Assembly: GCA_006384855.1 (NCBI GenBank)
Contig: VCJN01003428.1
Coordinates: forward strand, 124,001-188,000
Origin: Tetraselmis striata
Lineage: Eukaryota; Chlorophyta; Chlorodendrophyceae; Chlorodendrales; Chlorodendraceae
Length of the DNA stretch: 64,000 bases
Direction of reading: 5' to 3'
Within the stretch, counting starts at the first letter, position 1. Each line of letters begins with the position of its first letter. Of this stretch, positions 25,506 through 59,330 are shown piece by piece. Position numbers and translations under genes: made by a program. The notes beneath the pieces are model-generated. The model ran no database searches and was not told where the DNA came from. It saw nothing but the letters and a program-made list of their open reading frames with translations.

Positions 25506-26132
25506 AACATTAGTGCTGTTATGAAAACGGCAAGGGCGCTGGAAGACGATCAACAATTCATCCGGCGGGCGGGTACGCGTGGCCATGCCTTTGTTTCCCG
25601 GCGTCTTGACGACCTCATATCAATTTCATTTGCTTGGGTTTCGGGCAAGAGTTCTATTCTTGCCGGAGTTCCGCCACGAGCCACTAGTCGCTAATAAAAT
25701 GTTACCATGATTGCTTGCATGACATGTACATAACCGCGGACGGTTTTGAGCGGGAATAATGGTCGGCAAGACCTTTGCCATATTGCCATGCACAGTAGAT
25801 ACTATTGAAATGCACAGCGGCGGCCGCGTAAAAGCTTGAACATTCGTTCATTAAACATGTTATGTTGTTCACTTGTGAAAGTTGCCTTTTTTTGAGCCAT
25901 TTTGCACGAAATTCTCAAAACGCATGTTTTGGAGGCACAATTGCACAAAATCCCCTTGGTTGCACTCGATTTCACTATTTACCCGCGCAAAACGTGCAAA
26001 ATTGGGCATGCGCAGAGCGGATGCGAGGAAAAACCTAAGTCAAGACGCGCGCCACCCCATCAATTCATTGCGTTTGACGTCGTGTGATCGTGGGGCAAGC
26101 GTGCGAGGGCAAATACTTTAAGTGTCTAATTG

Positions 26133-26244: not shown

Positions 26245-29200
26245 TCATTGTATTGTCAACATGTCCAAAACGCACTTCTTCTCGTCTGCATTGAAGCGGT
26301 GGTCGTTGAACCACCTGCGTTTGTTGTCGACATCGAGTTTGTGGACGTTGAGCGCGGCACGGAGTCTTGCAAGCTCGTAAGTTATTTCCATGTGCCTAAT
26401 GCCGTCGAGGGGCAACGAAGCACCGCACTCCCTATTCGCCTCTTCCTGCAATTGCATGGTGTAGCGAAGCTTTGCCAAGGGCCGGCGCACAACAAGGTTC
26501 TTGTGTCTGGAGTCCTTGATCTCCGAGACGCCCTTCATGCTTGTCACGGCAGTTAGCTTGGTGCCACGGAAGTCGTGCTGGCACTGGCGGGCGGTCCGGC
26601 GAACGTTCGGGAAACGCAAGCTGAAGAGCGATAGAGGCATAGTGGTGATAGGCAACCATTTCATCTTCTTCGCAGCGTCCCAAGATGAGTCCGGTTATGG
26701 GTCGCGACTCTGTCGGGCCGCCGCGATGGCAAAGGTGAGCGGGATGTCGGGCTTCCCATGCGGCGTCGACAAGCAACCAAGGCTCGCACATGGTGACGTC
26801 CAACTCGTCAACTTCGGTGTGGTCCTCGGGCAAGCCATCCAAATCCTGGACGTCATATCGGTACCTTACGTAGGCCACAAGGTACTTGTTCTCCCAATCG
26901 CCGAGAAGACCCTCCTCGCGGTACGCGTCGGGGTTGTCGGCGGTGTTGTCCATGACGACCAAATTGCCGGGACGGGCGTCAAACTCGCGTCGGGTAGTGT
27001 CCTCATTCTCCAACGGGATCGCGACGGCATGACCCCCCTCCTCGGCCTCGTTCGAGTGCTCAACCGCTGTTGTAGCCGCTTGCGCCCCCCGCCGGCGCTT
27101 CCGGCGTTGAGTGGAGGTGTTGATGGTGATGGGGTTGTACGTCAAGACCCGAAGCTCCTCCTGAAGGTCGGCGTACCTGCGTGCCATGCCTTGGCATGTT
27201 TGGTCAAGCCTAGGTTGGGAACGCATACGTGCAGACATTGGATCATCGGCATCAAGATCCCTGTCAGGTAGCAAGGCGCCTAGCCAAGTGTCCAGCTCCG
27301 TGGTAGACTCGGGCCAAAACGCAAGGAAGGGAGTTCGATCCCTCGTCTCCAGTTCCCGGAGCGAAGCGAATTCCTCCTCCCATTCTCGCCTCTCATCCGC
27401 GGAGAAGTGCAACCTATCCGCCGCCTTCCAAATCTCCTTCTCCATGTCAGCAAAAGCCTTGCCCGGGTCAGCCTTGGAGTGGTAGAGAGGGCGAGAAGCA
27501 AGGTACGCAGGGGTGCCGTCGGGGACTCCGCGAAGGATGAACTCTGGCCCATGCTCTGCGGTATCGGACCAACGACTGCAATACAGGGCGCTGCGTACAC
27601 CACCGACCACAGCCTCCGATTGCTTGATGACGAACTGGTTAGAAGTCACCGTGTTCAGCACCTGGCCTTGTCGTGGAAGACAATTGCCAAGCCAAGTCTT
27701 GATGTCGAGGACTCCCTCGAGCTCCATGAAGTTGCATGTCGGTGTGAAGGCCTGACGAAGCTCGTGCAAAAGCTGAGCCTTGGTGAATGCGGCGTGGTCG
27801 TCAAGCCACACGGAGAATTTCGAGAAGACTTGGTCGACGCGCTCGTGGGTGTGCCTGGAAGGTGAACAATATAGTAAAAAGTCAGTAAGGCCCCAACTTG
27901 GCGACTGGTGGACCCGTTAACATAAATAATGTAAGTCAGTGGATGGTGCGGTTTTTTGGGGGGGAAGGGGGGGGGGGGGGGGGGGGGGGCTTACCCTACT
28001 GGGAGGAAAGAGAGACGGACTTCCTTGCAAAAACCCATGTGCACGAGCCATTGGCAAAAGCACAAGACGTACTTGTTCTTGTTCTCCCGGCAAGTGTTGT
28101 CGAGCTGGAACCACACAGTGTCCAATGCCTCGCCACGCCTCTCGATCTCCTTCTTGATAGTCTTGTACATGACGGTAATGGTGTTGCTACTGTTGTGAGG
28201 GAAGCAGTCGAAAAAGTAGTACACGTCGTCCGGCTGGCTCCCGTTGTACTTGACGCATGTCAAGTGACATTGCAGGAGGTTCTTCTTCTCCACCTCCTTG
28301 TCCCATGGCACAAGATGAGGATGACGGGTCTTGTCTTGATCCATGCCATCGATCTCGCAAACAAAGAGGTCCCTGTTTTTGCGGGAGTACTGCAAGGCCA
28401 CTTCCAAGAAATGCCGCTCGTGCAGTACCCTCTCCAGATGTTGCTCTTGCACGCGCTGAACGACAGCTCTATCGACAGGGTCCTTGTTGTACCTAGAATA
28501 ACGTTTGCGGCAACAATGCCATTGATAGGTTAGCTAGTACCGCATTCAAAATCGCAGTAATTTCTCGCTAGAACGACCGGGCGTTTGCTCATGCCACACA
28601 CTTAGTATCCATTAAGACTCATGGTGGGTTTGTGGCCGCACCGCAAAATCTTGGCGGAACTGGCACACACACTGCATTTGGTGAAGCGCTTGGTCTTCGG
28701 TACCTTCACATGCGGAAAGAACTGCAACCACGCTCGGCGGAAGGAGGAAATAGATGCGGGCTTCCCTAAATCAATTTGGGAATCTTGTTAGTACCTTGCC
28801 AAAAGACCATGTACTACGAGTTGCAGGCCCATTGGCCGGGAGAGGCAGGGAGGGGATGATAGAACCGAGCACTCACGGTTCTGATCCTTGCAGTCGGCCA
28901 CATACAACTTGTAGACCCGAGACTTCCTCATCCAACATGGTAGATGGCTTTGCGCTTGTCCGCTCGAGGGGTTGGGAATATGCTCAAGCCTGCCGCTAGC
29001 GTCGGACAAGTAGAGGTGAAGCCATGCTCTTGCATGGCTGCGTGGGGGAGAAACCTTGGGAACCTTGGCCCGCTTGAATGGAATCGGATCATCCAGGACA
29101 TCGCGCTGAATCTCTGAGAGCCTACGCTCGGATACATGGTGGATGAACTTCCACGCCTCGCGGCAGGTCTGCGAAATAGGACACATGAAAGAAAACAATT

Positions 29201-30663
29201 TGAGATTATTGTGTAGGTCGTGTGGTGGTGTCCGACACAATCCCCTCGAGTCACCACGGGTCCCTCCGCAGGATAGACACGCCTAGCGTCCATCCATAGG
29301 ATGGACGCACCTTGCGTCCATCCACAGCATGGACGCACCTTGCGTCCATCCACAGCATGGACGCAAATTGCGTCCATCCACAGCATGGGCGCAACTTGCG
29401 TCCATCCACAGCATGGACGCACCATGCGCCCATGCACAGCATGGACGCAACTTGCGTCCATCCACAGCATGGACGCAACTTGCGTCCATCCACAGCATGG
29501 ACGCAAGGTGCGTCCATGCTGTGGATGGACGCATGCCGACTCTAGCGGGAAAACGAAAACCAAATCCATGTGAGGAGTTCGATGCGATAGTAGCACTTTA
29601 CCTCAACTCGAATATACTAATTGATGTACTCAGTTATTTCTCCCAGCGCCATGCGTCCATCCACAGGATGGACGCAAATATATTACAGCTAAATAGAATA
29701 ATGGCCTTGCTTGAAATCAAGCAATGAATTCAATGCAGCAATACATGTGCGAACAAAGGAAAACGGTATTATTACTTAAGCTCAACATGTTAACAATCGT
29801 CGGTTTCTAGCATTAACACATGCGCGCGCCACAGGATGGACACAAATATATTCGAGCTAGGCAGTATTAGGAATGCTTGAAAGCAGCAAAGGAATTTAGT
29901 GCATCATTTGACATACCAAGACAAAACTTTATAATTACTCATGATCGGTATTTGGAGTTTTGGCTAGTCTATTAAAAGGGCACTTGCGTCGATACACAGT
30001 TGGAGCACACTCGACTGAAGTAATCGAAGGCTAAAGTAATGGAAAGGCACTCACCCGGATGAAGGTTCCGTTGGGCCTCTTCCACCACCATTGTTGCTTC
30101 GACTCCGAGTCGTCGCGGGTCTCCATGTAGGAATAACATTCAACGAAGGATGGCGAAGACTCCTCCGGTTGGAACGCGAGCTTGAGTCGGGAAGCAAGGA
30201 TATCGCGTGACCGATTTTGTCCCTCCGCATGCACCTCCTTTCGGGTCTCGAGAACGTCAAATAGGAATTCGTCGCGGCAACGGGCTTCCACCGCAGTAGG
30301 TGCCGATGGGTCAAAGGGCGAGCCGATGAGTCGAAAGAGGCACTTGCTGCCCTTGCAACACGGGTGAACGGCCTTGCGGCCGCGCGAGTCAACAACAAAC
30401 GCGCACGAGAGGATGCCCTCTGGGGTATCGCGACGAAAGCTCAAACCGGTGGTCTTTCCTTCACCAATGGCGCGATCGCGTTTAATAAAGCGATACTCAG
30501 CTTGGCCGAGCTTACCGGAGTTGCGAGGTTTATTTGGCACGACGCAAGTGCCGTGAAACGGCTTGGAAGATGAAGTGAGCGCCATCGGATAGGACGGGGG
30601 TTGAGGATGAGCGTTGGCGAGAGAGTGTGAAATGAGAAGAACTTTCATGGTGGACCGCCCCAC
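26245..30663 (-). CDS. DUF7869-type (transposase-like RNase H-like) protein, C-terminus disrupted
   Basis: Exons: 30663-30055 (the ATG at 30585 is an alternative start), 29168-28877, 28765 to about 28615, 28492-27995 and 27854-26245. Exon 2 has CREAWKFIHHVSERRL. Exon 3 has FRRAWLQFFPHVKVPKTKRF then CSVCAS. Exon 4 has VCEIDGMDQDKTRHP and FQLDNTCRENKNKYVLCF, and runs across the intron into FLPVGHTHERVDQVFSKF. These blocks define a large family of uncharacterised eukaryotic proteins (DUF7869). Spaced acidic residues suggest an RNase H-like, possibly transposase-derived core; that function is inference. The exon 3 donor is not canonical: AATGG is followed by AT instead of GT. In the last exon the coding-looking frame changes near 26735, and that frame has TAA at 26695-26697, so the gene may be a pseudogene. 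It is divergent to the ParB-methyltransferase gene. Confidence 0.65.
29286..29533. repeat. Palindromic minisatellite, cluster 1 (intron of DUF7869 gene)
   Basis: About ten tandem units of 25-28 bases lie in intron 1 of the minus gene. Each unit has arms GCGTCCAT and ATGGACGC around a CCACAGC loop, so each can fold into a hairpin. All frames stay open, which produces spurious ORFs on both strands. Single units recur near 29650 and 29830, the latter two inside a diverged duplication of about 90 bases. Confidence 0.9.
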
Positions 30664-31075
30664 GATCGCCCTCAGTCAAACCTTACGTAGTATTTCGGAT
30701 TGCATGTTGACTCGTCGGTCAAAGGTTGCCCTCCATATCTGTGGTTGCGAGCACCCGGTCAACGCGTTTCACATACCGATCATCGCAGTACATCGTACAG
30801 TATGGATTTATTTCACTAACCAGTACTACTGTAAAACTGCGGAAAGTGATGATATACAGTACATTCCGTAATACTTCGAACGGTATTATTAGGTGAAATA
30901 TTTATCGTCATATATGCGCGCTGCCAGTACTTTGTGCTGTACCCATGTGGCGGCGGCGCCGCCGCCGCCGCCATCGGGACCCAACGGCTGACCAAGGACT
31001 GCTGACGAGAGCTCAGAACGCACTTCTCCACAACCGCAACACCACCATCCACTTCCTTGCGAGCACGCCCAGACA

Positions 31076-31830: not shown

Positions 31831-32080
31831 GTGTCCATGCTGTGGATGGGAGCAAGTGTCCATGCTGTGGATGGAAGCATGTGTCCATGCTGTGGATGGA
31901 AGCATGCGTCCATGCTGAGCATGGAGACATTTACCAATCCTGTGTATAAAAGCATTATTCCATGCATTAGATGGACATATGCGTCCATGCTGTGGATGGA
32001 CACATGCTTCCATGCTGAGCATGGAAGCATGCGTCCATGCTCAGCATGGAAGCAAGCGTCCGTGTCGTGGATCGACATAC
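31831..32080. repeat. Palindromic minisatellite, cluster 2
   Basis: About eight units related to GCGTCCATGCTGTGGATGGA, more diverged than cluster 1, lie in the divergent spacer. Together with cluster 3 it sits inside a larger tandem duplication. Confidence 0.85.
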
Positions 32081-32540
32081 TTCCAGTGGAAACCAACCTA
32101 AAATTATGGATTACATAAAGCTCGTTTGTTTGTGTGAATGAAAGAAAGTGTCTAATTTATCTGATATTCCAAGTCCTGAATTATGGGACTCTTAAACCGA
32201 TTTAATGTTCAATTACTGTAGATCTGGTCATAAATCCTTTGTCTGCAAGCATTCTCTCATGCATTAGCCGGACATATGCGTCCATGCTGTGGATGGACAC
32301 ATGCGTCCATGCTGTGGATGGAAGCATGCGTCCATGCTGTGGATGGACACATGCTTCCATGCTGTGGATGGAAGCAAGCGTCCGTGTCGTGGATCGATAT
32401 ACTTCCAAAGGAAACCAACCTTAAGCTATGGATTGCCTAAGCTCGTTTGTTTGTGTGAATGAAAGAAAGTGTCTGTTTTACCTGTTTTTGCATGTACTGA
32501 ATTATGGGAGAATTAAATCGATTAAAGGTTCAAATACTGT
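31950..32540. repeat. Tandem duplication of about 298-base spacing
   Basis: CATGCATTAG, then the palindromic units, then CGTCCGTGTCGTGGATCGA, GGAAACCAACCT and GCTCGTTTGTTTGTGTGAAT occur twice in the same order. The copies differ at perhaps one base in eight. Confidence 0.75.
32276..32396. repeat. Palindromic minisatellite, cluster 3
   Basis: Four to five units of the same GCGTCCATGCTGTGGATGGA family, forming the second copy within the larger tandem duplication. Confidence 0.85.
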
Positions 32541-32829: not shown

Positions 32830-35800
32830 ATGGAGGCGCTCCGAGCGGCTGCCTCGAGATCGAAAGGGGGAAAAGGGGAAAATCTCTCCGCCAAAATGTT
32901 GGCCGCGGAGGGCAAATCACGTTCACGGCCTACCCGAGGAGATCCGGGAGATAAAAACTTGTCGGCCGAAGAGAGAGCCGCAAAGCGTAAAGCGGGAAGA
33001 GATGTCATCGATAACCTTCCCTATGATTGGACCAAAAAGCGGCGCAAGACCAAGCCAATGTAAGTTGAAATCGCTTATTGTTTTCTTATATTAACCATTC
33101 TCGCCGGGTTTGTAAGCTTTAGGCGAGAGACTGTAACATAGGCAAGGAAAAGGTTTGCAGCAAAGGAAATTGTTACAGTTTGCCAAGGCATACACGGCTT
33201 TTGTACCACTATCCGTTTGGCTGTCGGTTTGCATGTAGGCATTTAGGTTCATGTATGCAATCTAGGCTTGCTGTCATCATGGGGTCATCGGGTTGCTATG
33301 GCTGGTGAAAGCATGGCATGTGGCGAGCATGTGGCAAGCATGTGGCAAGCATGTGACAAGCACGTGGCAAGCATGTGGCGAGCATGTGACAGGCATGTGG
33401 CAAGCATATCTGTGTGGGTGGGTGAGCAGCTTAGTTGCGTGTTGTTGTGTTAGTATAAGGGAGTGAGTGTTGTGAGTATGACGGTATAGGTGTGTGGGTA
33501 TAGGTAGGTATAGGTGGATATATAGGTAGGTGTAGGTAACGCTAACATTCCATCCCGGCCCAAAAAAGTAGCCCTACGGGATACGTAAAGGAAAGCGGGC
33601 GGGATATTTGGCAGACAGGATATGATAATCATGTTGCGTAAGCAGAAGGCGGAGGGAAGGTGTGTTTCGGGCATAGACATGCAGCATATCGACATTTTTG
33701 AGGTTGGCATAGGGTTCCCATGAGTCGTGGGAATCGTCGTAGCCGGACCAATGCACAAGGAAAACTAAAGCAGGGCCGCGGGCATGGTGTGGCGAGTATT
33801 GGTCAATGCGGTGGTCGCGAATGGCGTCGACGATATATTCGTCTTGCGGGGGCTCAATGCGGCCAGGTATGTCATCGGCGGGAGTGTCTGGGGATTCGCA
33901 GCGGAGCAGGCGAGAGATGTGGAACACGGGGTGGCAGACCATGCTGGTGGGCAAGCGAAGTTGGTAGGCCTGCGAGGAAATTTTGCGGACGATCGGATAC
34001 GGGCCGATGTAACGCTGGCGGAATTTGCGAACTGGTTGGTTGCGGAGCAGGAGGTGTTGTGTGGAAAGCCACACTTTGTCGCCCTCGGTGAATTCGTCGG
34101 GACGAGTTTTACGGTTGGCATATGCTATTTGGTATGCGTCGGCGAGTTTTAGTTCTTCTGTGATTACGGCATGGGTATGTTGTATCCGTGGAACGATATC
34201 AATGTGATTCGCGGGGTTGACCGGTTGAAACAAGAGGTGTGCGGGTGTAAGCGGGTTCATGCCGTAGCATGCTTCGAACGGGGTGCGTTTAATTGCGGAG
34301 TGATAGGCGTTGTTATAACTGAATTCGGCGAGAGACAAATTATTGAGCCATTCAGTGTGGTTTTGGTGCACGAAAGAGCGGAGGATGTGTTCAATGGTGC
34401 GGTGCGTACGTTCGGTTTGTCCGTCCGTTTGGGGGTGGTATGAGGAACTGATATTTAATTTCGTACGCAAAGAGCGAAACATATTTTGCCAGAAGGTCGA
34501 GGTGAAGCGGGGATCGCGGTCGGATATGATGGTGCGGCAAAGGCCGTGGTGGCGGAAAATGTTATCGATAAACAAGCGAGCGAGCTGGGGGGCGTCTATA
34601 TGAATGCTGCATGGGATGAAGTGGGCTTGCTTAGTAAAAGTGCAAACAAACGTGGCGATAGTGTCGAAGCCATTTTGCGCAGGGAGGCCGGTGATAAAGT
34701 CCATGGAAATAACTTCCCATGGTCGTGTGCCTTTGGGTAGAGGTGACAAAGAGCCAATGGGGCGTTGGGTGGAATTTTTTATGCGTTGGCAGGTCGGGCA
34801 GGTGCGGCAGTAATGTTTTATGGTTTTGCGCATGTTGGGCCACCAGAATGTTTTAGAGATGTTGGCGAGCGTGCGTTCTGCATCGGGGTGACCGGCCGCA
34901 TCGTGGAATTCCTGGATAATTAAGTTAAGCAGGGGTGTATCTGATGTTGGCAAGCAGACCTTATCAGCCATCTAGTACAACTTGTCGTTGGTATCGAACG
35001 TAACGCCAATGGGGATGCGATTGCCATAATAATGTGTGTCGGTTGTGTAGCCGTGGCGGATGCGAATAAGTAATTCAGGATTAACTTGTAGGTGGCACAT
35101 TGTTGAGAGGAAATCATGCATGTCCTCCAGATCTTTATCAAGAAGTTGGGTGTCGTGTTCAGTTAAGGCATGGTGTAGGTCTGGACGGCGGGACAGGGCA
35201 TCAGCTTCGTTTTGGGATCCTTTGCGATACAATATTTGTAGGACGGGTTTACCGGTGCGGGGGTGATTAGCAAGGTATGGGGAAATAACACTAAGCCACA
35301 GGGAGTGACGGCGGCCTAGCGCGGGCTGATCGGGTAAGTGGCGGAGTGTTGCGTGGTCGGTGATGACAGTTATGCGACAGCTGCCTTCGATATAGCAGCG
35401 CCATTCGTTCAATGCGCAGACTACACCTAAGAGTTCTTGATCATAGGTGGGGTATCGAGTATGGGCAGGTTGTAAAACTTTAGCATAGTAAGCGCATGGT
35501 CTGAGGTGGCCGGCGGAGTCCTTCTGCAGTAACACTGCACCTAGGGCATATTTGGAAGCATATGTTGAGACTACAAACTCGGCGTCTGGGCATGTTGCAG
35601 GAGTCATTAAGACCGGGGCTGAGCATAGTGATTGTTTAAGAGCATTAAAGGCGACATGCTCGCGTTCCCCCCATGTAAACTTTTTAGTTTTGCGGCAAAT
35701 ATCATAGAGAGGGGCCGCCATGTGGGAATATTTGTGGACATACTTGCGATAGAAATTGCAGAATCCAAGGAACTGTTGTATTTGTTGTACGGTTTTAGGT

Positions 35801-38800
35801 GGGGCCCAGTCGCGAACTGCAGCAATTTTATTTTCGGAGGGGCGTGTGCCATGTTGGCTAACCATATGACCTAAATATTCTAGTTCTTTTTTGGCGAAGA
35901 AGCATTTGGGCAATCGCAGCCGTATGTCGTTATCGGCGAGGAGGCTCAGTGTGGCATTAAGGTGAATCAAATGGTCATCGAGTGAGTTGCTAAAGACTAG
36001 TACGTCGTCAAGATAAACAAGGATAAACGTGTTTTTGTGCGGTTGAAGGACGTTATTCATCCATCGTTGGAACACTGAGGGGGCATTGGACAGGCCGAAT
36101 GGCATAACCAGAAATTCGAACTGGCCGAACTGAGTTTTGAACGATGTTTTCTGAACGTCGGAGTCTTTTATGCGGAGTTGGTGATAGCCTAGGGCAAGGT
36201 CAAGAGCTGAGTAAACTGCAGCGCCGGAGAGCATATCGAGTAGCATGTCAGCGTGTGGGATTGGGAATTCTATTCGACGCGTATATTTATTTAGTTGGCG
36301 ATAATCAATGCACATGCGCAGGCCGCCATTGCCCTTTCGGGCGAATAGGACGGGTGCAGCGTAAGGCGAGAACGACTCTCTAATAAAGCCTTTGTCTAGA
36401 AAGTCATTTAACTGTTTTTTCAACTCATCCAACTCGGCAGGGGATAGGCGATATATTTTGCCGGGTGGCACTTGGGCATCGGGGAGTAGGGGTATTTCGA
36501 AATCAAAGCCCGGGCGGGATTGCGGGAGGCAGTCCAATGGTTGGCAAATACTTTTATGTTTAAGCAGGAGGGAACGGATTTGTTGGGTATATTCGGCAGA
36601 CTGGTCAGTGGTAATACTGGCTATATCATTATCTACGGAAAGGGCAGTAGTGTGTTCTGTGGCGTTGTACTCGCGCAGCATGGCACAGAAGAACACAGTG
36701 TCGGGATCTTTTTTAAGTATCTCACGAGCCATAGTGTTGGCGTGAACCACATCGACGTTACTTGAGCGAGGTTCAATAGGGCATGTCACGGTGTGCCCGT
36801 CGGAGAACGTGAGTGAACCGGTGGTCCAATTAATATTTGGGTTATGGTGTTTGAGAAAGGAAAGGCCAAGGACGGCGTCGAAGTTATTCTGTAAGGGGGT
36901 TACAATAAACTCAACGTTTGCCTGATATCCATTTATGTCTAGTCGTAATGTGCAGGACTGTGATGCCAGGGTCATACGGCCGTCTGCCATAATAATACGT
37001 ATTTTATTTTGTAGCGGTGCGGTATTAAATTTGCGCAGGCGGGCGAAGGCCTCGTCAATAAAACACAGTGTAGCGCCGGAATCCAGGAGTATAGTGAGCG
37101 GGGGTAAGTCCGGGTGGTCAGGTAGTTTGGGTTTCAGTAGTAGTAAGTCGTGATCGGACATTGACGTTATAAAAGCTTTATCAGTTTCAAAACGGGGTTG
37201 GTGGGTTTTCTTAAATGTCTTATTGGGGATATATGACTTACCTTTAGACTCAAGCTCAAGACCCTTGATGTGTTCAGAGCGCATACTGTCGTTGTGCGCC
37301 GTGGCCGCCTGCTCGTCGACAGTGTTGTCGGCGAGGTAAACATCCACGATCCAGTTGGTTGGTGGCATAGGCAGGTCATCAGTGGCAGTTGTGGCAGTGT
37401 GGAACAGATAAGTGCCGGCGGGGTATGAGTGGATGAGGCGGTACTTAGCCAAGATGGGACGCCAGGATTTTCCGAGGTCGCTATTCCAGCGGGGTAAAAC
37501 AATAATAGCCCGGGTGTTATACGGGGACTCCTGACGCTGAGCTTCGAAGTGCTCGAGTATAGGCAGGGCAGACTCATCATACGGGGGGTGGATAAACACT
37601 GTATGGCCGACAGCCGATGTAGCAGTAAACGGAATATCGCGCGAACAAAAATTCGGGCAAACCGCGTCAAACGCAGAAGCGCAAGCATCAAGGGTAACTG
37701 GGCCATAATTAAAATTAAGGCGGGCAAACTCATCACGGTCAAAGGCTGTAGAGTCGGGTGGGCAGGCCGTTGGGCGGGCAGGTTTGGTTTTAGTGGCAGG
37801 TGCAGGGCGGCGGCGGTAAAATTTCCGAATAGCAGCGCGTTTTTCAATCGCGGACAACTTGGCAGTGGCCATGTCGGCCGGGATGGCAAAGTCGGCAGTA
37901 GCAAGCAGGAACCGGCACAGCTCGTGCGAAGGCAACGAGTGTGTCGACTCGACAGTCAACGGGACTGAAGAGGAGGCCCCGTCATGCGCAGGCACCGGCA
38001 CGCAGGGCTCGGCCGCGCTCTCAGGAGTTATCTCGTTCACCGGGGGCAAGCCAATAGGCATAGTCTCAGGGATGGGGGACAGACTCGGCCAGTAAGAAAG
38101 ATCATCGATTGATTTACATTTCGACATCGAATCTAAACTGGCCCCAAACCGTCATTGACCGGCAGGGCGGTTCAAGTTCAGCTTAGTGATACCTTTAGCT
38201 GCCTTGTTGGCAGCCACTGTCTGGCGCCAAGCTTGCTTGTCAGCCTCGCTCGTCGACGAGCATTTCATGATGGAGTGGCCCATTCGGCCGCAGCCATCGC
38301 ATTTGCCGTCATAGCGGTCATAGCCAGAAAGGCGGGGGGTGGCGGGTGTGGGGGTGAGATGGGGGGGAGGGGGGGTGGATGGGCCTGCGGGGGGAAACGG
38401 GCCTGCACCCGGACGGATGTAGCGGTGCGGGGGGGCATCGGCAGTATATTTGCGTTTGCCGTTGGCGGCAGCGGCGAACTCGAGATCAATGGCCTCAAGG
38501 TGGCGGCAGATGGTGGAGTAGGAGTCGATCGGCTCGTCAGCGCGACGGCTCGCAGCCTCGAGGGCGACTTGAGCCGAGTGGGGTAGGCACGCTTGGATGA
38601 CGCCAACGACGGTGAATTCGTCGTACCGACGATGTACCGGGAGCAGGTCGAAGGTGCGCCGCAGGTGTTGGGCGAGCTTGATGGCGGTGCCCGGCAGGTG
38701 GGGGTGGTTAGGGGCGATGCGGAGGGCAGTGGCGTAACGCATGATGACGCCAGGCAGGTTGGAGTTGGAGTGGAAGCATGCCACGAGCTTGGACTGGAAG

Positions 38801-41800
38801 TCGTCGATGTCTGCGAAGATGGTGGAGACGCTCACGCCGGGCGCGACTTCGCGGGACACGGGGGGGTTGTCGGCAGTTAGGCCGCGATAGGCCATGCCAG
38901 CGTCCGACTCTGGAGGGAACTGGCGGAGTATCCATGCCTCAAGAGCGGGGGTCCAGTAGATGCCGGCGATGAGCTCACGGAGTTCTGTAAAAAAGGCGAT
39001 GAGTTGGCGGACTTCACGGCGGTCGCCGAGAATGCGGGAGGCGTTGATGATGTCTCGAGTCGGGACGCGGGTTTTAGTTTTGGCGAGCTCCACCTGGATG
39101 ACGCGGGCAACATGGGTGTCGATTTCCATGGCCTCGAAGCCCGCGGCAGCAGCGGCGGCGGCGGCGGCGGCGTGGTCAGCCATAGTAGCGGCGGCGGCGG
39201 CGCGGCGGGTGACGGGCATACGCAGTGGAAACGCAGCGGGGGATCTTTAACCAGAGCTCAGCGAAACCAATGTAAGCTTTAGGCGAGAGACTGTAACATA
39301 GGCAAGGAAAAGGTTTGCAGCAAATGAAATTGTTACAGTTTGCCAAGGCATACACGGCTTTTGTACCACTATCCGTTTGGCTGTCGGTTTGCATGTAGGC
39401 ATTTAGGTTCATGTATGCAATCTAGGCTTGCTGTCATCATGGGGTCATCGGGTTGCTATGGCTGGTGAAAGCATGGCATGTGGCGAGCATGTGGCAAGCA
39501 TGTGGCAAGCATGTGACAAGCACGTGGCAAGCATGTGGCGAGCATGTGACAGGCATGTGGCAAGCATATCTGTGTGGGTGGGTGAGCAGCTTTGTTGCGT
39601 GTTGTTGTGTTAATATAAGGGAGTGAGTGTTGTGAGTATGACGGTATAGGTGTGTGGGTATAGGTAGGTATAGGTGGATATATAGGTAGGTGTAGGTAAC
39701 GCTAACAGGGTTGTTGATTTCCCATGCTGCTTTCGATTTGGGAACTCAGGCTACCTACCCATTCGGCAGGGAATCCATTCCGGGATCAACGAGGGCTGAC
39801 ACAGCCGAGGATGAGGACGAGCACGACACACAGCTACCCGAGCCACCAACGGCAACTGAACCGACTGTGGCAGAGGCAACTTCACCCACAGTCAGTACGC
39901 CTGAGGTTGAACACACCGTCAAACTTGAAGAGTAAGTGATTTTGTTTTTTCTCAAGTGCCCTCCTTACTTACGATCTAAGCATGATTCATTCGCGCAAGC
40001 GCCTTTCCCGGCGTAATCTTACTAAATAACTGGGATAAATTTGTGTTTGCAGGTGGATGAAACTCCTAACCCGGTTCAAAAGGCTATATAAAAGGGAGGG
40101 CCGGGAAGCGTACTTCGATGCCCACCTCAAAATGGGTAGGAAAGACAATCCGGCGGTTCGGTATGGAACGCATCACCGTGAGATTCCCTGGTAAGTGCTC
40201 CCCAAGTACCGCCAGCATGCACCTTCAATTCGGGGACACGATATCCCTTACTAAGGTGTGGTAACCTTGTCATTTCCTAAAGGAACCAGGCATACTGCGA
40301 CCCGGGCCCGCCCTTCATCGAGCAAGAATTTCCGTACGATTATGCGGGCCTCTTCATGGGGACGCACAAGCTGCACGGCAAGGTCCTACGGTCCTTGCGT
40401 CACAAAACGGGAGGCAAAGTTGAGAACCTTGACAAGGCAGTTGAACAAGGCTTCATGACAAAATCTCAAGCCGCTACTTTCCTCCGCAAGTGCCGCAAGG
40501 AGATAAGCGATTTTGAGGGCCCCGCATGTCTCGATGATTGTGATCCGTAAGTGCCTGCCCATTAATTGCCTATTGATTTTACATTTTCGCGTGCCTTCCG
40601 ACCTATGCTTTTATACCATGCAAAAGTAGAAACTGAGTCATGATGTTGGTGCCTCTACAGGAAAATCGGCGAGTGTCTTCTTCTAACCTACTCTCGTGGG
40701 GAACACATGCGACCGATCTACGGCACGCCAACGGTCGGTCTCCATATCAAAGAGCTCATCGAAATATTATCGGGTGGTGCGATGACGAAGTTCAATGACA
40801 CCGGGGCACCTTTTGATGTTATCACCTCCGTGTGGCTACAAAGTGACCAAATCATCGCCGTCGCAAGGTACCAAGCGGCATGTTTCGCAAACCAGAGGTA
40901 ACTATGTAGGAGACACTCTCTGACTTAACAATATTTTGATATATATGCCGTCGCGTAATTACTTTCATCGTTTCAAAGATGAGATTGTGTGTACTTATAT
41001 TTCCGCATGACCCTCAGGATGGTGGCAAAGCCGTGCGATGTTGTTCCAGAGAAGCCTACACATGCCGAGCTGCTTCATTTTTGGACGCCTTGGTTCATTG
41101 CAGGAGACTCGCCGCCACCGTAAGTACCGGCCTTCGACCGCCTGTCCAGTACTTATAAACTCTGTTCTACTTCTAATTATCACTTGTCTTTTAATAGCAA
41201 AGCAGTTTTTTAATGTTCATATGACTGCCTGGCCCTCTAATACAATGCTATGCGCTTATGATAGGGTTGCCGAGAAGCCCGCGGAGAAGGCCGAAAAGGC
41301 GACTCCAACTCATGCCGCGGCCGGGTATGATTGCTTGCTCCATTCGGGAGGACTACATGCTCGGGTTGATAACCCCTTGATAACTTACACCACCGGCTCA
41401 TATACAGTAATCACTCTGTGCCTAAAATGCTGCTCTGTGTCATGTAGGACTTCAAAGTCCCCCAAGAAGGCTAAAGCCGCAAAGCAAGCCTCAAAGTTAC
41501 CGGCCGAAGAGCCGAAGACGGCAAAGGAGAAGGCTACGAACAAGTCACTCATCTGCCCGGGCTCCCGTGGGGTAAGTCCCTATATGCCGTTAAGGAATCC
41601 TTCATAGTCATTTTATTGTCCGAGTCGGTGTCAATCAAAGCACGCGCGGCAATGAGTTATCCTTCTGACACTTATACACGGATGCATTTTGCAGGTCTTC
41701 TGCCGTGCCAAAAACTCAAAAAGAGGCTGCCGCAGGCGGCTCGAAGGCAGCGCCGGCCGCCGCCCCATCAACTGCAACGTAAGTTGTAAGAATGGTGACA

Positions 41801-44800
41801 TCGACATGCATAAAAATTAATTGCTAATACAATAGACAACACACCTACTAAGTATGTGCTACTTGGTGTTAAATTTGCCGGGCACTCTGTGACTGAGTCG
41901 TTGGACACCACCGGCTCATATACAGTAAATCACTCTGAGGCTAAAATTCTGCTCTGTGTCATGTACGCCTTCAAAGTCCCCCAAGAAGGCTAAAGCCGCA
42001 AAGCAAGCCTCAAAGTTACCGGCCGAAGAGCCGAAGACGGCAAAGGAGAAGGCTACGAACAAGTCATCTGCCCGGGCTCCCGTGGGGTAAGTCCCTATAT
42101 GTCGTTAAGGAATGCTTCATAGTCATTTTATTGTCCGAGTCGGTGTCAATCAAAGCACGCGCGGCAATGAATTATCCTTCTGACACTTATACACGGATGC
42201 ATTTTGCAGGTCTTCTGCCGTGCCAAAAACTCCAAAAGAGGCTGCCGCAGGCGGCTCGAAGGCAGCGCCGGCCGCCGCCCCATCAACTGCAACGTAAGTA
42301 GAAGGGTGACATCGACATACATAAAAATTGCTAATACAATGGACAACACACCTAATAAGTATGTGCTGCTTTGTGTTTAAATTGCAGGGCACTCGGTGAG
42401 TCGTCGCAAGGGAGGGAGACAAATCATGGTGCATCAGCCGCGGCTCAAGTCGACATGAACGTTTGAATTGCCACTGAAGTTAATTCTTCGAATGTATCTT
42501 GATGCGCATGGATTCATGGATTCATTCACTTACAACGGGCGGCGCTTTTGGTTGTCATAGGCTCTCAAAGACCGCGGCGAAGAAACAGCCGGCAAAGGCT
42601 ACATCAAAGGCAAAGACCGTACCATCCAAGCAGGGTACAAACACACCGAAGCTCAGGTAATATAACCACTCAAGCCACATTATTTCGTGCTGATTAAATC
42701 ATGTTTAGATTCCATTTTTATTGACAGTTCCTCCATCTACTAAGCTATTTCTTGCATTCTTTCAGGATGTCAACCGCTCCAGCTCTAGTGAAGTACAGGC
42801 GGCCACTTGACTGGACTCCTTCAAAGCCAAACCACGACTGGTGCTTGAAGTACATTGACAACGGCACTATTCAAGTGTTCTTGTATGAAGGTAACTTATC
42901 ACAGCTTTCACATGCCCTTTAACCATCGAATATATATTCATGGGTGAGTCCCATACATTTCACATATGTTGCATATATACACGTTTTGTACTTAATGAAA
43001 TGTGCAACTATATAAACACATTTATTGCCGATATATTTATGTTTCGCGTAGGTAGATTTCTTTGTGTTACAAATGTGTACAAGTAATTACTTGAACGGAT
43101 TATTGCGATCCCACGGAACGACTCATGCGGTCAGGTGTGGCTGGGCTCATGCGTCCATGCTGTGGATGGAAGCATGCGTCCATGCTGTGGATGGACGCAT
43201 GCGTCCATGCTGAGGATGGACGCATGCTTCCATGCTGTGGATGGACGCGTGCGTCCATGCTGTGGATGGGCGCATGCGTCCATGCTGTGGATGGGCGCAT
43301 GCGTCCATGCTGTGGATGGACGCATGCGTCAATCCTGTACAGGGTTACCAGTGTCTATGTTGGACAAAAGTGTATCTTTGTGATATAATTATGTCATGCA
43401 TATAGTCTTCATTTTATTATTTATTTTACTAATTATGACTATCTTCGCAGACAAGGAGGAGAATGTGACAAAGCCGGCACTTTTGCCAGTGCAAGGGGAG
43501 TGTATCCATGTTACTCCCCCATCAAGCTTGGTGATGTTGCATCAGTCGAGATAAGCGGGACATATAGTCTGTTGTTCAGATTCAAGAAGGACAGCGGTGA
43601 TTCAACGGAGGGTGTCTTGGCCATCTCTGGCCTGGTTCCGAAATCCATGAACCCAACCCCCGCTTCGATATTATCGAGTATCTGGGGCTACATCCCTGCG
43701 TGGCTTTTCAACCCCGGGTACGCAAGAGACACCATTCGGGACGTCCTGACTTCAAAAGCTGTGAACATACACGCGAAGAAAACAGTCCCTTTCATGAGGA
43801 AGAACGCCAAGACAAACCTCTACAACATCTTCCTGAATGGTTACCTTGGCTTGTTTGCAACGCATGGATCGCAACATCTTGTCGATCCGAGCTCCGGGGT
43901 CAAGATTTTAAGCCTCGTGACACTGAACGCCAGGGTGCGCGATCGGCCCATTCATCGCTAATAAAATTTTCAACTATCCTATTCGTTGATGTCCTGTGTG
44001 CTGCTAACGTACTAATTTCTATGCAACTGATTCTTGTTCTCCACTCAGGTGCCGGGTGGGTCTGGGTCGGCTGGCACTTTCGAGCTACCAATCGAAGTCC
44101 TTTCTCCTCCAACAGACGATCTCGCCGCGCGTGAGCTCCACATGCCTCATGTCCACGACTTGGCTTCTGAGTTCGAGGTAAATAAGCTTCCCTAATTGCG
44201 TAAGAAAAATTTTTTAGTTAAGCTGGAATTATAATTACGGTAAACCGGTTGTTGAGCTCTCAATCTAAGAATCGACAATATGCACAGGCCAACGGCAAGG
44301 ATCATAGCCAGGGCAAGTTTATTGTTCTGATGACCAGCAAGACGAGTTCTAAGACCTTGAAGCCAAAGGAGGTTGGCCAGATGTTGAAAACAGATGATTT
44401 CGGGTCCAAGGTATGATTACACCGGCTCTTGTTGCTTGGTAAAACCCGAAACCAACGATCAAGATTGCTTCAAAGTTTCCCAACGTTTGCCACCTCACAA
44501 AGTTTTACCTAAGAAAGTTTTTATTTACACATGACAGGAGTGGATCGTAAGGATGAATAAGGAATTCAACTTCTATGTCATCGTCGGTAATCACCGAAGG
44601 GCGGCTTCAAAGCTCGTGATTTCCCGAACCGAGATCGAAGCCATCAAGCAGGAGCTATCCAAGTGGGAGTGCCTCGTTCTCTGCGCATTGAATGAGCAGG
44701 TTGCGAGATACATCGGCAATCGCCAAAATATCACCAATGCCAACACCACAATCAACACCCAGCTTGACAACTACCGCCTTCTTCGCAAAGAATACGAGAT

Positions 44801-47800
44801 GATGCGCGAGATTGATGACAAGCGACTCGAGGGTGAGGGTGACGAAGAAGAGTTCTCCTACAAGCGCTGGAGTAGCGAGAGCAAGGACGATCTGGTTACG
44901 GATCCGGTTATGAAGGAGAAGTACTCGAGGTTCAGCTACCTATGGAAGAGTTGCGGATTCGCTCTTAAGCGGAATCCAGAAAACGTGAGTGCCCCTCCCC
45001 AGACGTATGAAGATATGTGTGTCAGTACATATAACTCCTAAAATTACATGTATATCCTGAAACATATGAGCATATATTATCGACTCTACATAATTATTTA
45101 TTTAGGTTATATAAGTTTGACATGGATATATACTGTAGATTAGGTAACTTCTCACAAGTCACTGTGTCATACATGAAGAACATCTTCGCTTGCGTCCATG
45201 CTGTGGATGGACTCATACATGCGTCCATGCTGTGGATGGAAGCATGCGTCTATGTTGGGCATGGACGCGTGCGTCCATGCTGTGGATTGAAGCATGCGTC
45301 CATGCTGGGGATGGAAGCATGAGTCCATGCTGTAGATGGAAGCATGCGTCCATGCTGTGGATGGGGACATCGGGCCACGTTGGATTAGGTACGTTAAAAG
45401 ACAACAAATACATTGTATATCCTAACAGTTGGCATTCTCTCCTTCTCAGGGTCAATTGGGTCCGCCATCTCACGCTGCTCTTTTCAAGGCTACTGTCATG
45501 AGGAAATATGACATTTGGAAGGCAGTCGAGGAGCTCATGGAAGCGTTTCAAAGCGGGAGTCTGGAAATGCCGGAGCAAGGCTCTATTCTCAAGCTGCTCG
45601 ATGGATTGAAAATCAAGTCTACCACCAAGCCAGCTCACAAAAAGGATGCCTTCCTCATCAGGGAGTGCAACAAGATCTTCAAGTCTAGGTGTCTTGATAG
45701 GGGCTACAGGCACTTCACCAAGAAGTTGGCATTGCAGGCTGGCATCGATTGCTACCTCCCAGACTCGGAGGAAGCTGATCAATCCCTCAAGCCGCATTTC
45801 CCCGAGCAAGTCCTGGAGGAGCTTACTGCTACATCACATGCACGGTGGGAATATCCAGAGGTAAGTCGCGCCATTCTCATATTCATACATCCCATCTGCC
45901 TCAACCATGGTATGCATCATTGCTGAAGAATCCTTGTCATGTGGTGCTCAGATTCGGAAGGTCGTCGACCGGCTGATGAATCCCAGCGACAATCTGACGG
46001 TGTTCCCAAACGGCAGCACTTGCACTCCCGCCATTACTCACCTGAAGATCGTGGAGTATCTCAGGGGGGTCGTCCTCACCCACTATGGCCAAGAATTCGG
46101 TAGGTTGCGCCAAGGAAATAACCGTACCTCGTAGTTGTATTGGCGCTTTGTCTATCGCAGACTGAGGTTTATTGTGCGTGTCTATAATCCAGATGCGGAT
46201 TGGGATACCTTTGCGCGCTCGACCAGTACCTGGACCAAAGCAATTGACGGTGATCTTGAGAAATCCGATGCTCAAGGATTTGCTATCCTGCTCCACCCCG
46301 TAATCCGGTCAAAGGAGGATCAAATCCAGGCGTATCTACAGCCCATTCCGAAGGAGAAGTGGTGCGTATTTTACCCAAATTCCGGTGGGGCTTGATATAG
46401 AAATTCGCATTTGACATTGCTTTAGCTAATTAAGGTGGTATCTCTTCACACACTCGCATATGCAGGACACCGCCTAAGGACCCTCTTCAATGGGAGTCGT
46501 CCATGAGGACTTTCTTTGCTACAACAACGTACACCGCTGCGAGGCAACAGCGCCAGCTCACTCCTGTCCGGCAAAAACTCTTCCTGAAGTGGCACGATTG
46601 GATTAGGAAAGTCAAGAGCGGCTATTTCAGCAAGCGCGCTCAGGCTGCGCCGTTGACAAAAGATGCCCAGCGATGGAATTTGATTCATCATCAAAGTGAT
46701 CTCATTTCAAAGTAGCCCCCCCCCCCTCCCCACGGCTGGCGGTGTCATGCAGGCAACCGCAACGCGGTCACTAAAATAAGAGAGAATTGTTTTTTGTTTA
46801 CAGGCACATTATCATCAAGGGTGATTTCGACAATCACAGGGACAACATCAAGCAGTTGGTGGCATCCACAGCGAAGCCCGTATCTCTTCTCATCGCAGAC
46901 AGCAACTACGGGCTCAACTTGGGCCCCTAGGATGTGGCATGGACTTCGGAATTCAAGAACACACTGAGCTTGGTGGATCATTGCAACGATGGCCTGCAGA
47001 ATTGCAAGTTCATCTGGTTCCTTACGGACCAGGCACTTCCCCATGCCATGGCCGCCATCTCCGAGCGCGACATGCAATTCAAGGTGTTCTATTGGAGCAA
47101 GAATCGCGGGAACTGCGCCGGTGACCGTTTCACATCCGACGGTGAGATCTTCTTGATGTGTTGGCCACCCGGCCACCAACTCGACATCTTCAAGGATCCC
47201 ACTGAGCCCGAGCGGTACACTACCAACCCCTATTGCGCCCGCATACCATCCTCCAACATGTTCCGGCTGGAGTCAACCGATGTGAGCAAGCCCACCAACA
47301 GCGCGCAAAAACCAATTGCGCTCATTCGGAGGATCCTGGACTTTGCCACGGAACCGGGAAGTCTCATTTTGGATGTGACTTGCGGCACAGGCACTACAGC
47401 GGTAAGTGATCCGTGAGTGGCCCCGGCATCAATGCCTATATTACAAGTAATACAACCAAAAGTGAACAACCAAAATTTATACTTTCTGTCATCAAAGTAG
47501 TGTGGCCGTCCGGTGACTTTGTGCTTGGCATTTTTCGCAGCTTGCTTCCATCGTCAGAATGCAAGACCTGGCTATTAGCCGCAAGGCCCGCATTCAAACC
47601 CCCGACTCCGTCATCTTGGTGGAGAAAGACGATACCCAGCACGAAGGCGCTGTGACGAGGATCAAAGAGTGGTTGGCTCTGAGCAAAGATGAAGCCGACG
47701 CGCTGGAGGATCGCAAACTCGGAACTTTTCCGAGGAAAGCTGGCGGTGGTGCTGAGGATGGCGAGGAGGAGGAGGAGGAGGCTAAAGAGCCTCTGGCGCA

Positions 47801-48134
47801 AGAACTCTCTTCGCTGGCACATGTGGGCAAGAGTATTGCTGCGGGGCAAGATGATGGCCACGCCACTGAGGAGAACGAGCAAGCCGAGGCCAGTGAGGAT
47901 GTCGCCAATCCCGTTGGCGAGGATGATGATGATGAGGAGGAGGAGGAGGAGGAGGAGGAGGAGGGGGAGGGGGAGGAGGAGGAGGGGGAGGAGGAGGAAA
48001 CCGAGGAGGAGGAGGAGGAGGAGGAGGAGGAGGAGGGTGGCCACTCCTCCTCCGAGGCGGCGGATTCGGAGTGTGATGATGATGTCGATGATGATGCTTC
48101 CAGCGATGCTGATGATGATGCGCTGGGTGACTAA
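32830..48134 (+). CDS. ParB-like plus N6/N4 DNA methyltransferase protein with acidic tail
   Basis: About 24 exons, nearly all joining in phase: 32830-33059, 39770-39931, 40053-40190, 40283-40546, 40661-40897, 41018-41119, 41265-41324, 41448-41571, 41695-41778, 42210-42293, 42388 to about 42460, 42561-42656, 42766-42890, 43451-43934, 44049-44177, 44288-44410, 44538-44984, 45450-45860, 45952-46103, 46161-46361, 46466-46711, 46804-47401 and 47541-48134. YVIVGNHRRAASKL at about 44575-44615 is the ParB/Srx-type signature. The methyltransferase domain has beta-class order: motif IV region LLIADSNYGLNLG near 46900, FKVFYWSKNRGNCAGDRFTS, then FLMCWPPGH, then motif I (LILDVTCGTGTTALASI). The tail is almost pure Asp/Glu. 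Oddities: motif IV reads DSNY, not DPPY; an in-frame TAG at 46928-46930; a likely one-base shift near 43530; and an unresolved junction at 42388-42660. Confidence 0.8.
33106..33110. repeat. gypsy-2 target site duplication, left
   Basis: GGGTT directly precedes the left LTR and recurs directly after the right LTR. Confidence 0.9.
33111..33547 (-). repeat. gypsy-2 LTR (3' LTR relative to its genes)
   Basis: It begins TGTAAGCTTTAGGC and ends GGTAACGCTAACA on the plus strand, so it is bounded by TG...CA. About 33322-33410 is an internal tandem array of a 10-11-base GCATGTGGCAA motif. A purine-rich tract (GGGCCGGGATGGAA on the minus strand) adjoins it. Confidence 0.95.
33574..34971 (-). CDS. gypsy-2 integrase with chromodomain
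   Basis: It has a zinc-binding N-terminus (HDAAGHPDAERTL ... CRTCPTCQR), a catalytic core (VISMDFITGLPAQNG, TIISDRDPRF, SSYHPQTDGQTERTHRTIE) and the YIGPYPIVRKISSQAYQLRL and HPVFHISRL block. A chromodomain (LVFLVHWSGYDDSHDSWEPY) completes it. This is the order of chromoviruses, whose chromodomain directs integration to particular chromatin. Confidence 0.93.
   Translation of the reverse strand: MADKVCLPTSDTPLLNLIIQEFHDAAGHPDAERTLANISKTFWWPNMRKTIKHYCRTCPTCQRIKNSTQRPIGSLSPLPKGTRPWEVISMDFITGLPAQNGFDTIATFVCTFTKQAHFIPCSIHIDAPQLARLFIDNIFRHHGLCRTIISDRDPRFTSTFWQNMFRSLRTKLNISSSYHPQTDGQTERTHRTIEHILRSFVHQNHTEWLNNLSLAEFSYNNAYHSAIKRTPFEACYGMNPLTPAHLLFQPVNPANHIDIVPRIQHTHAVITEELKLADAYQIAYANRKTRPDEFTEGDKVWLSTQHLLLRNQPVRKFRQRYIGPYPIVRKISSQAYQLRLPTSMVCHPVFHISRLLRCESPDTPADDIPGRIEPPQDEYIVDAIRDHRIDQYSPHHARGPALVFLVHWSGYDDSHDSWEPYANLKNVDMLHVYARNTPSLRLLLTQHDYHILSAKYPARFPLRIP
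34972..38127 (-). CDS. gypsy-2 Dam-like module, protease, reverse transcriptase and RNase H
   Basis: A 1051-residue reading frame. The Dam-like module (about residues 140-270) has LNFNYGPVTLDACASAFDA, HTVFIHPPYDES and AIIVLPRWNSDLGKSW. A retropepsin-like region has ILLDSGATLCFIDEAF. RT has APVLFARKGNGGLRMCIDYR, FEFLVMPFGLSNAPSVFQR and FILVYLDDVLVF. RNase H ends in NEADALSRRPDL. The Dam-like module precedes the protease just as in gypsy-1, which shows that it is an inherited part of the lineage. Confidence 0.92.
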   Translation of the reverse strand: MSKCKSIDDLSYWPSLSPIPETMPIGLPPVNEITPESAAEPCVPVPAHDGASSSVPLTVESTHSLPSHELCRFLLATADFAIPADMATAKLSAIEKRAAIRKFYRRRPAPATKTKPARPTACPPDSTAFDRDEFARLNFNYGPVTLDACASAFDAVCPNFCSRDIPFTATSAVGHTVFIHPPYDESALPILEHFEAQRQESPYNTRAIIVLPRWNSDLGKSWRPILAKYRLIHSYPAGTYLFHTATTATDDLPMPPTNWIVDVYLADNTVDEQAATAHNDSMRSEHIKGLELESKGKSYIPNKTFKKTHQPRFETDKAFITSMSDHDLLLLKPKLPDHPDLPPLTILLDSGATLCFIDEAFARLRKFNTAPLQNKIRIIMADGRMTLASQSCTLRLDINGYQANVEFIVTPLQNNFDAVLGLSFLKHHNPNINWTTGSLTFSDGHTVTCPIEPRSSNVDVVHANTMAREILKKDPDTVFFCAMLREYNATEHTTALSVDNDIASITTDQSAEYTQQIRSLLLKHKSICQPLDCLPQSRPGFDFEIPLLPDAQVPPGKIYRLSPAELDELKKQLNDFLDKGFIRESFSPYAAPVLFARKGNGGLRMCIDYRQLNKYTRRIEFPIPHADMLLDMLSGAAVYSALDLALGYHQLRIKDSDVQKTSFKTQFGQFEFLVMPFGLSNAPSVFQRWMNNVLQPHKNTFILVYLDDVLVFSNSLDDHLIHLNATLSLLADNDIRLRLPKCFFAKKELEYLGHMVSQHGTRPSENKIAAVRDWAPPKTVQQIQQFLGFCNFYRKYVHKYSHMAAPLYDICRKTKKFTWGEREHVAFNALKQSLCSAPVLMTPATCPDAEFVVSTYASKYALGAVLLQKDSAGHLRPCAYYAKVLQPAHTRYPTYDQELLGVVCALNEWRCYIEGSCRITVITDHATLRHLPDQPALGRRHSLWLSVISPYLANHPRTGKPVLQILYRKGSQNEADALSRRPDLHHALTEHDTQLLDKDLEDMHDFLSTMCHLQVNPELLIRIRHGYTTDTHYYGNRIPIGVTFDTNDKLY
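38152..39219 (-). CDS. gypsy-2 gag with zinc knuckle
   Basis: A 355-residue frame starting just inside the 5' LTR. The N-terminus is Ala-rich, the body is helical with capsid-like composition, and a proline-rich linker precedes a zinc knuckle (CDGCGRMGHSIMKC, spacing C-x2-C-x4-H-x4-C). This fits a gag that assembles the particle and binds RNA. Its frame ends next to the start of the pol frame. Confidence 0.85.
   Translation of the reverse strand: MPVTRRAAAAATMADHAAAAAAAAAAGFEAMEIDTHVARVIQVELAKTKTRVPTRDIINASRILGDRREVRQLIAFFTELRELIAGIYWTPALEAWILRQFPPESDAGMAYRGLTADNPPVSREVAPGVSVSTIFADIDDFQSKLVACFHSNSNLPGVIMRYATALRIAPNHPHLPGTAIKLAQHLRRTFDLLPVHRRYDEFTVVGVIQACLPHSAQVALEAASRRADEPIDSYSTICRHLEAIDLEFAAAANGKRKYTADAPPHRYIRPGAGPFPPAGPSTPPPPHLTPTPATPRLSGYDRYDGKCDGCGRMGHSIMKCSSTSEADKQAWRQTVAANKAAKGITKLNLNRPAGQ
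39251..39269 (-). other. gypsy-2 primer binding site
   Basis: On the minus strand TGGTTTCGCTGAGCTC starts one base inside the 5' LTR. PBS sequences begin TGG because they pair with the CCA end of a tRNA. The tRNA was not identified. Confidence 0.55.
39271..39707 (-). repeat. gypsy-2 LTR (5' LTR relative to its genes)
   Basis: Nearly identical to 33111-33547 over its full 437 bases, with the same TG...CA ends and internal 10-11-base array. The GGGTT target duplication follows at 39708-39712. Confidence 0.95.
41390..42320 (+). repeat. Tandem duplication of an exon pair in the methyltransferase gene
   Basis: The block CACCGGCTCATATACAGTAA through the Lys/Ala-rich exon pair to CGTAAG recurs about 520 bases later, with high identity. 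In copy A the exon 41448-41571 has a splice acceptor but four extra bases (TCACTCATCTG against TCATCTG), which breaks the frame. In copy B the equivalent exon (41967-42086) keeps the frame, but its acceptor AG is changed (GTAGGAC to GTACGCC). The second exons (41695-41778, 42210-42293) are both intact. Confidence 0.9.
43148..43335. repeat. Palindromic minisatellite, cluster 4 (intron of methyltransferase gene)
   Basis: Seven units of the GCGTCCATGCTGTGGATGGACGC family, close to perfect, lie in the intron between exons ending 42890 and starting 43451. Orientation and unit length match clusters in the DUF7869 gene and the divergent spacer. Confidence 0.92.
45190..45370. repeat. Palindromic minisatellite, cluster 5 (intron of methyltransferase gene)
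   Basis: Seven somewhat diverged units of the same palindromic family lie in the intron between 44984 and 45450. Confidence 0.9.
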
Positions 48135-48231: not shown

Positions 48232-48830
48232 CAATGTGTCACCGCAATTGGTTTCGGAGCAATCATCTGCATATTATTCATGTCCTCACTTCATGCCTTT
48301 TGGCTGCATGACAAACATGATGGTTTCGGAGCTTGTCTATGCTATGGAACTTTACTCTTGCATTGCTTTTATTACCATCCATGTTTTGCTGCATGCTAGC
48401 TTTGATCATACTTTACATGAAAATAGCAATGGCAATGTTATGGTTTCAAAGGATGATAGACCATTTCTATTACAGACTTAGTTAGCCATACTAACACCAC
48501 AGCGCGGCCGCCCCACGTTAGTTACTTGGCAATACAGTACCAAGTTATTTCCGTGATCATCATCTGTACCAAATTGTATCCATGATCATCACGTTGACCC
48601 ATCCATGCTAGCCCGGGGGCAAGACGTCGCTCGGCACTTAGATTATTTTGTGGCGTGTGTCTGGTCCCCTGAAAACAAGGGTTTTGAGGCCAACATTGCT
48701 TAACACCGCAACCATGAAACTTTTGGCTAACCTAACATTTATTCTGAATCAATGTTCTTGTCGCATTCACCATCTGCTTGGGAGCAGTGCAGTTGACAAG
48801 CATACGTGGACATCCTGCGTGCTTACACCG

Positions 48831-59308: not shown

Positions 59309-59330
59309 GTCACATCTGAATCTCACAGTG
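59309..59330 (-). repeat. Right terminal inverted repeat of EnSpm-like element
   Basis: Inverse of 50999-51020, ending CTCACAGTG. CAA follows at 59331-59333. Confidence 0.85.

Follow-up and report, generated by a model that had tools for sequence, protein, structure and literature searches.

A multicopy, Sola-like DNA transposon of the green alga Tetraselmis striata very probably carries an accessory gene of ParB-like/methyltransferase type

The closest described systems are giant transposons of other algae. The passages on Sola1-1_Ec32 of Ectocarpus describe a 21.5 kb element in which a ParB-like region and an N4C/N6A methyltransferase are combined in one protein of 1104 aa, encoded on the strand opposite to the transposase, and giant Ectocarpus elements also contain nested unrelated transposable elements (TEs) (Dinatale 2025, PMC12477816). 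In those passages the authors suggest that such a protein may bind, and itself modify, the transposon that encodes it, cite similar proteins of green and red algal transposons (Iyer, Abhiman and Aravind 2011; Petroll et al. 2025), and name the giant red algal elements EnSpm. Sola elements, as summarized in the part of PMC10741241 that treats them, have 4-bp target-site duplications and a DDD transposase, and their size can exceed 15 kb.

The window analysed here, a 64,000-nucleotide stretch of T. striata DNA, contains a locus that we regard with high confidence as a transposon carrying an accessory ParB-like/methyltransferase gene, a kind of element already in print from other algae. It resembles the published description of Sola1-1_Ec32 in being large, in having a predicted two-domain accessory gene opposite the transposase, and in containing a nested TE, and it differs in residing in a green rather than a brown alga and in predicting an accessory protein of ~1,760 aa rather than 1104 aa. 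The Sola1-1_Ec32 passages mention no repeat arrays, and the Tetraselmis element has five. A divergent gene pair and a methyltransferase, which characterize the algal accessory-protein systems, are both present; the ParB region is recognized by motif and the fusion by gene model. The sequence-only reading of this DNA had known of no such system described from a eukaryote; the Ectocarpus case is one, and PMC12477816 cites others from green and red algae. Beyond that paper, the literature searched yielded no further account of a comparable system. Added here are a second, diverged element group that keeps both genes together in this genome, a common non-canonical motif IV, and dyad repeats as a candidate target.

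The transposon extends from 25839 to 48756 (22,918 bp, or ~16.3 kb without a nested LTR element) and is bounded by imperfect terminal inverted repeats at 25839–25862 (plus strand) and 48733–48756 (minus strand), with 18 of 24 positions of the left end matching the reverse complement of the right. The four bases CTTG at 25835–25838 are repeated identically at 48757–48760, immediately after the right end. The left end is present in at least 40 genome copies at 98–100% identity (40 scored among 167 candidates), and the methyltransferase exon likewise in at least 40 at 91–100% (40 scored among 72). At 24/24 loci the left end is identical and the outward flanks differ by eye; a probe placed slightly inward of the right end matches in 25/29 loci, most of which diverge within a few bases of one common point, the exceptions being L017, which stops early, L014 and L037, which continue into element sequence, and L033, which reaches the end of its contig.

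Both ends could be found in seven copies, of which five are comparable for target duplications; C761 was excluded because its right end is broken, and a GGTA match at C2618 was dropped because the ends there lie in opposite orientation, indicating a rearranged copy. An exact 4-bp duplication is present in three of the five (CTTG in the window, TATT at C1479, CATC at C1740) and was not found at C1697 or C401. These duplications, together with the inverted repeats, are as expected for Sola elements, and we refer to the transposon as Sola-like on the basis of the 4-bp duplication and the size, an assignment made by description. A Helitron or a tyrosine-recombinase element was considered and rejected, as inverted repeats and 4-bp duplications are seen instead. 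The element is probably a large cut-and-paste DNA transposon that has been active recently. Outside it, window positions 57663–59330 are 92% identical to sequence that borders the copy of the element carried by contig C2208 (L046:1-1717), representing another dispersed repeat.

Intron 1 of the accessory gene contains a nested LTR retroelement of 6,597 bp (33111–39707, minus strand), which is not part of the transposon proper. It is of Ty3/gypsy type by eye, with reverse-transcriptase and integrase frames (also identified by eye) on the minus strand, 437-bp LTRs and a 5-bp duplication. The LTRs are identical at 434/437 positions, indicating a recent insertion, and the transposon copy C2707 carries the empty site.

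Two divergent genes are predicted, a transposase on the minus strand and the accessory protein on the plus strand. The core of the transposase gene (26276–28492) comprises exons 28492–27995, 27854–26709 and 26620–26276, supported by both Pfam and the gene model, and its split frame matches the DUF7869 profile (PF25273) with E values of 3.3e-23 and 3e-13. Probable upstream exons at 30670–30055, 29168–28877 and 28765–28642 (minus strand, 28642–30670 overall) are from the gene model only and are uncertain, and a further modelled exon lying over repeat array 1 was taken as false. Candidate D, D, D residues picked by eye lie in EIDGMDQ, FQLDNT and HTHERVDQ. DUF7869 is not named in the literature searched.

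The accessory gene (32830–48134, plus strand) was modelled in copy C2707, which lacks the nested LTR element, using codon scores trained on window exons and with the repeat array of intron 18 masked, as an unmasked run called the array an exon. This yields 24 GT-AG exons and 1764 open codons, starting at a CTG where the window has ATG, and agrees with the earlier description of a eukaryotic, algal, intron-rich gene. All 24 exons are present in the window in the same order, with exons 4, 8 and 24 aligning in part only, and with window edges before exon 10 and after exon 12 that are not AG/GT. Exons 10-11 are a duplicate of 8-9 and are missing from C2208 and C1697. An independent annotation, P0002 (eukprot jgi/Tetstr1, TSEL_043279), can be read for 654/654 residues from seven window pieces, which supports the edges of those pieces and points to T. 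striata as the source. In this annotation exons 20-22 are absent, the ParB-like exon is without its opening part, and the methyltransferase exon is cut to about half.

The window copy of the transposon is broken. Its methyltransferase exon contains an in-frame stop that is absent from 24/24 other readable copies (30 loci were read, five without a readable start), and exon 15 has a one-base length change; other stops in the methyltransferase exon are present at L026, L030, L034 and L035. Window positions 40290–41119 (exons 4-6) differ from C2707 by ~6–18%, the core exons 14-23 are 98–100% identical, and dN is approximately equal to dS over exons 1-13; with N-terminal exons diverged and the core near-identical, the copies seem to be mosaics put together from two sources. 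Homolog searches returned Tetraselmis models and a few 'lgn' proteins. The annotated protein P0012 (TSEL_017951) has at its end part of the methyltransferase exon of the transposon, a possible exon capture or mis-annotation.

Exon 23 (46804–47401, plus strand) encodes the methyltransferase domain, in which both FKVFYWSKNRGNCAGDRFTS and the motif I block DVTCGTGTT can be read in the window. Beta-class N6/N4 methyltransferases have motif IV before motif I, and the translations show this order. Matches to N6_N4_Mtase (PF01555) score 39.2, 37.2 and 40.2 bits against a curated cut-off of 26.7 (E 9.6e-10 and 4.9e-10), bearing out the assignment to the beta class that had been made from motif order. 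The catalytic motif IV is canonically [DNS]PP[YFW], with DPPY as the canonical form. The window reads D-S-N-Y, correctly described before as non-canonical. Of 25 readable copies, 24 show D-[SN]-N-[YF], and the remaining one, L032, is out of frame at this point. The 'lgn' protein P0015, encoded on a 2,030-base contig and sharing 39% identity with the query across 29% of its length, has D-A-N-Y, and the PP of the canonical motif is missing from these 24 copies and from P0015 alike. The W following motif IV is retained, as is motif I. Exon 24 (47541–48134, plus strand; LASI at 47541) contributes an acidic tail, in which 49 of the final 73 translated residues are D/E; it had been termed a pure acidic tail, and is acidic indeed, but rich in these residues rather than pure.

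The closest solved relatives of the methyltransferase domain by sequence are M.RsrI and CcrM, both weak (E 0.01 and 0.013). The NCBIfam model of CcrM, whose cut-off is 830 bits, scores 27.6 bits with E 1.3e-6. In contrast to these DPPY enzymes, the Tetraselmis protein has a D-x-N-Y motif IV, is fused to other regions, and is encoded by a eukaryotic transposon. Bdelloid rotifers have a prokaryote-type PF01555 enzyme, N4CMT, encoded by a host gene, bearing a chromodomain and acting against transposons; it is likewise eukaryotic, but host-encoded, whereas the Tetraselmis gene is carried by a transposon. Elsewhere in the genome, loci L003 and L005 (contig C1597) and L004 (contig C803) have methyltransferase frames that are intron-free in the match and have a DLPY motif; as a guess, these are possibly virus-derived. 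A search for relatives of P0015 in viral contigs gave 12 pattern matches, none of which was confirmed.

A ParB-like domain in the accessory protein is plausible. Exons 16-18 (44049–44984, plus strand) include VIVGNHRRAASKL, located by eye and read at 44538–44984, which fits by reading the G-x-H-R-R-x-A motif that follows a strand in ParB_N-type proteins; the structure models are of poor quality (mean pLDDT 50.5 and 47), too poor for use, and unusable for the preceding strand. The earlier claim of a ParB signature stands in that the motif is readable, as are the other motif blocks quoted with it, but not at the level of the profile, as PF02195 does not match the accessory translations at E values up to 10. 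Of three weak matches, the last is to PHROG 1033, 'ParB-like partition protein' (E 0.22), a search for phage relatives of the region gave two records, both with E 3, and a genome-wide PF02195 search identified four places, none of which belongs to an element copy. With PF02195 unmatched and only the motif and a weak PHROG match in support, we name the region ParB-like rather than ParB. Contigs C1010, C2280 and C935 hold a prokaryote-like methyltransferase frame (on C1010, the contig that was read, as L001) and ParB_N frames, and are possibly bacterial contigs in the assembly.

The genome contains at least 104 PF01555 matches (150 scored among 259 candidates), and 60 of the places, distinguished by the span and the intron-like stops of their matches, were set apart as a second group. 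Two of these were read, and their two methyltransferase exon pieces share 29 and 46% identity with the first family; transposase exons on second-group contigs (e.g. C58, C1193) are ~48% identical to the window transposase. There is a DUF7869 place (150 scored of 548 candidates) within 15 kb of 34 of the 60 places, against a chance expectation of ~2% per place, and all 34 pairs are divergent, 24 of them 9.3–10.6 kb apart; the other 26 places have no scored DUF7869 place within reach. As the divergent pair is kept in two diverged groups, a long shared inheritance of the two genes is probable. None of the 150 matches listed for a ParB-like query falls at a second-group place. Purifying selection on the accessory protein was sought in three young first-family copies by comparison with C2707 and no sign of it was found, dN/dS being ~1 (0.95–1.79, with few changes), as is expected if most copies decay.

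The element also contains tandem repeats built on a 23-bp dyad unit, GCGTCCATGCTGTGGATGGACGC, that occurs 32 times in the window at three or fewer mismatches and not at all in dinucleotide shuffles, a control that takes no account of tandem duplication. Every one of the 32 sites lies inside the transposon, with none in the nested LTR element and none in the window flanks. Among the segments examined, there are 102 sites in 52,268 bases of element DNA (parts of four copies) and none in 117,138 other bases (window flanks, DNA lying downstream or upstream of two copies, the left flanks at 24 loci, and a further seven loci that are unrelated). The sites form five arrays: array 1 (29286–29675), mostly of 28-bp period and between transposase exons of the model; array 2 (31831–32053), between the two divergent genes; and on the plus strand array 3 (32278–32375), upstream of the accessory gene, array 4 (43151–43323) in intron 14, and array 5 (45192–45368) in intron 18. 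All are outside the trusted modelled exons and ~3.4 kb or more from the element ends, and are not subterminal; a single 23-bp core is common to arrays of 25- and 28-bp period and is present in both orientations. Conservation figures for the dyad are inflated because sites were picked by similarity to the core. The number of units varies among copies, and C2707 lacks most of array 1.

Exact 20-mers of the dyad occur 828 times genome-wide, compared with 0 for the reversed pattern. The first 100 of these places are on ten contigs, of which C19, C144, C401, C407 and C414 hold independently found element parts; the remaining five, C39, C87, C193, C238 and C458, have no counterpart among the element copies listed. 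Among these listed matches, which cover contigs numbered up to C458, there are none on C80, C187, C221 or C279, which have methyltransferase-exon copies of 91–95% identity, none on C110, C350 or C363, which have transposase exons of 87–89% identity, and none on the nine second-group contigs in that range. The concentration of dyad repeats in the element is a new detail here, the literature having been searched for repeats only loosely.

We propose that the accessory protein would bind the DNA of its own element, in all likelihood at the 23-bp dyads that lie within introns and in the space separating the two genes, which we regard as its candidate binding sites; the chances of such self-binding seem to us evenly balanced. 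Binding would mark or shield the element, by adenine-N6 or cytosine-N4 methylation or by binding alone, and the mark or shield would in turn regulate expression or transposition. That the domain is a genuine methylating enzyme is a possibility we put at a little under even. An arrangement resembling plasmid partition, in which a ParB-like protein on parS-like dyads would deliver the D-x-N-Y methyltransferase to its own copies and so create a transposon-encoded epigenetic mark, is conceivable yet unlikely. The methyltransferase domain may also be viewed as catalytically dead, and the protein as a DNA-binding transposition cofactor or anti-silencing shield. The absence of the second proline of motif IV from 24/25 readable copies and from P0015 points this way, while the retention of motif I and of the W after motif IV points the other, and the motif variant shared with the divergent P0015 would also fit an active variant; we give a dead domain a substantial chance, if somewhat short of even. 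Nearly balanced, too, is the question of whether the dyads are passive minisatellites, or sites for the transposase rather than for the accessory protein. Such origins are consistent with the variable unit number, with changes in the arm pairs that are one-sided in 94 instances and pair-keeping in only four, and with the absence of contigs bearing older element pieces from the 20-mer matches listed. They fit less well with one core recurring across two periods, both orientations and five places, or with the distance of the arrays from the ends.

The sequence-only reading saw a resident gene long established in the algal nucleus. On such a view the gene would be an epigenetic regulator of the alga, multiplied only through chance capture or segmental duplication, and in favour of this it is intron-rich and annotated as a gene model (TSEL_043279). 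Its copies, however, have two identical ends, terminal inverted repeats and short target duplications, and a transposase is kept alongside in two diverged groups; a resident gene is thus very improbable, and the gene is instead the cargo of a multicopy transposon with common ends. A bacterial or viral contaminant, or an integrated virus gene, might be suspected from the prokaryote-like methyltransferase and ParB_N frames elsewhere in the assembly, but the ~23 GT-AG introns, the nested LTR element, the dozens of copies across many contigs, and the lack of a confirmed P0015 relative in viral contigs make this scarcely credible.

For annotation the transposon reading carries a caution: where a methyltransferase gene model with many introns is annotated in an alga, the gene may belong to a transposon. 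With two diverged element groups, a green alga of the Chlorodendrophyceae joins those lineages of algae in which giant transposons encode a methyltransferase that probably binds DNA, and the concrete candidate binding site supplied here makes the published idea of self-binding and self-modification directly testable.
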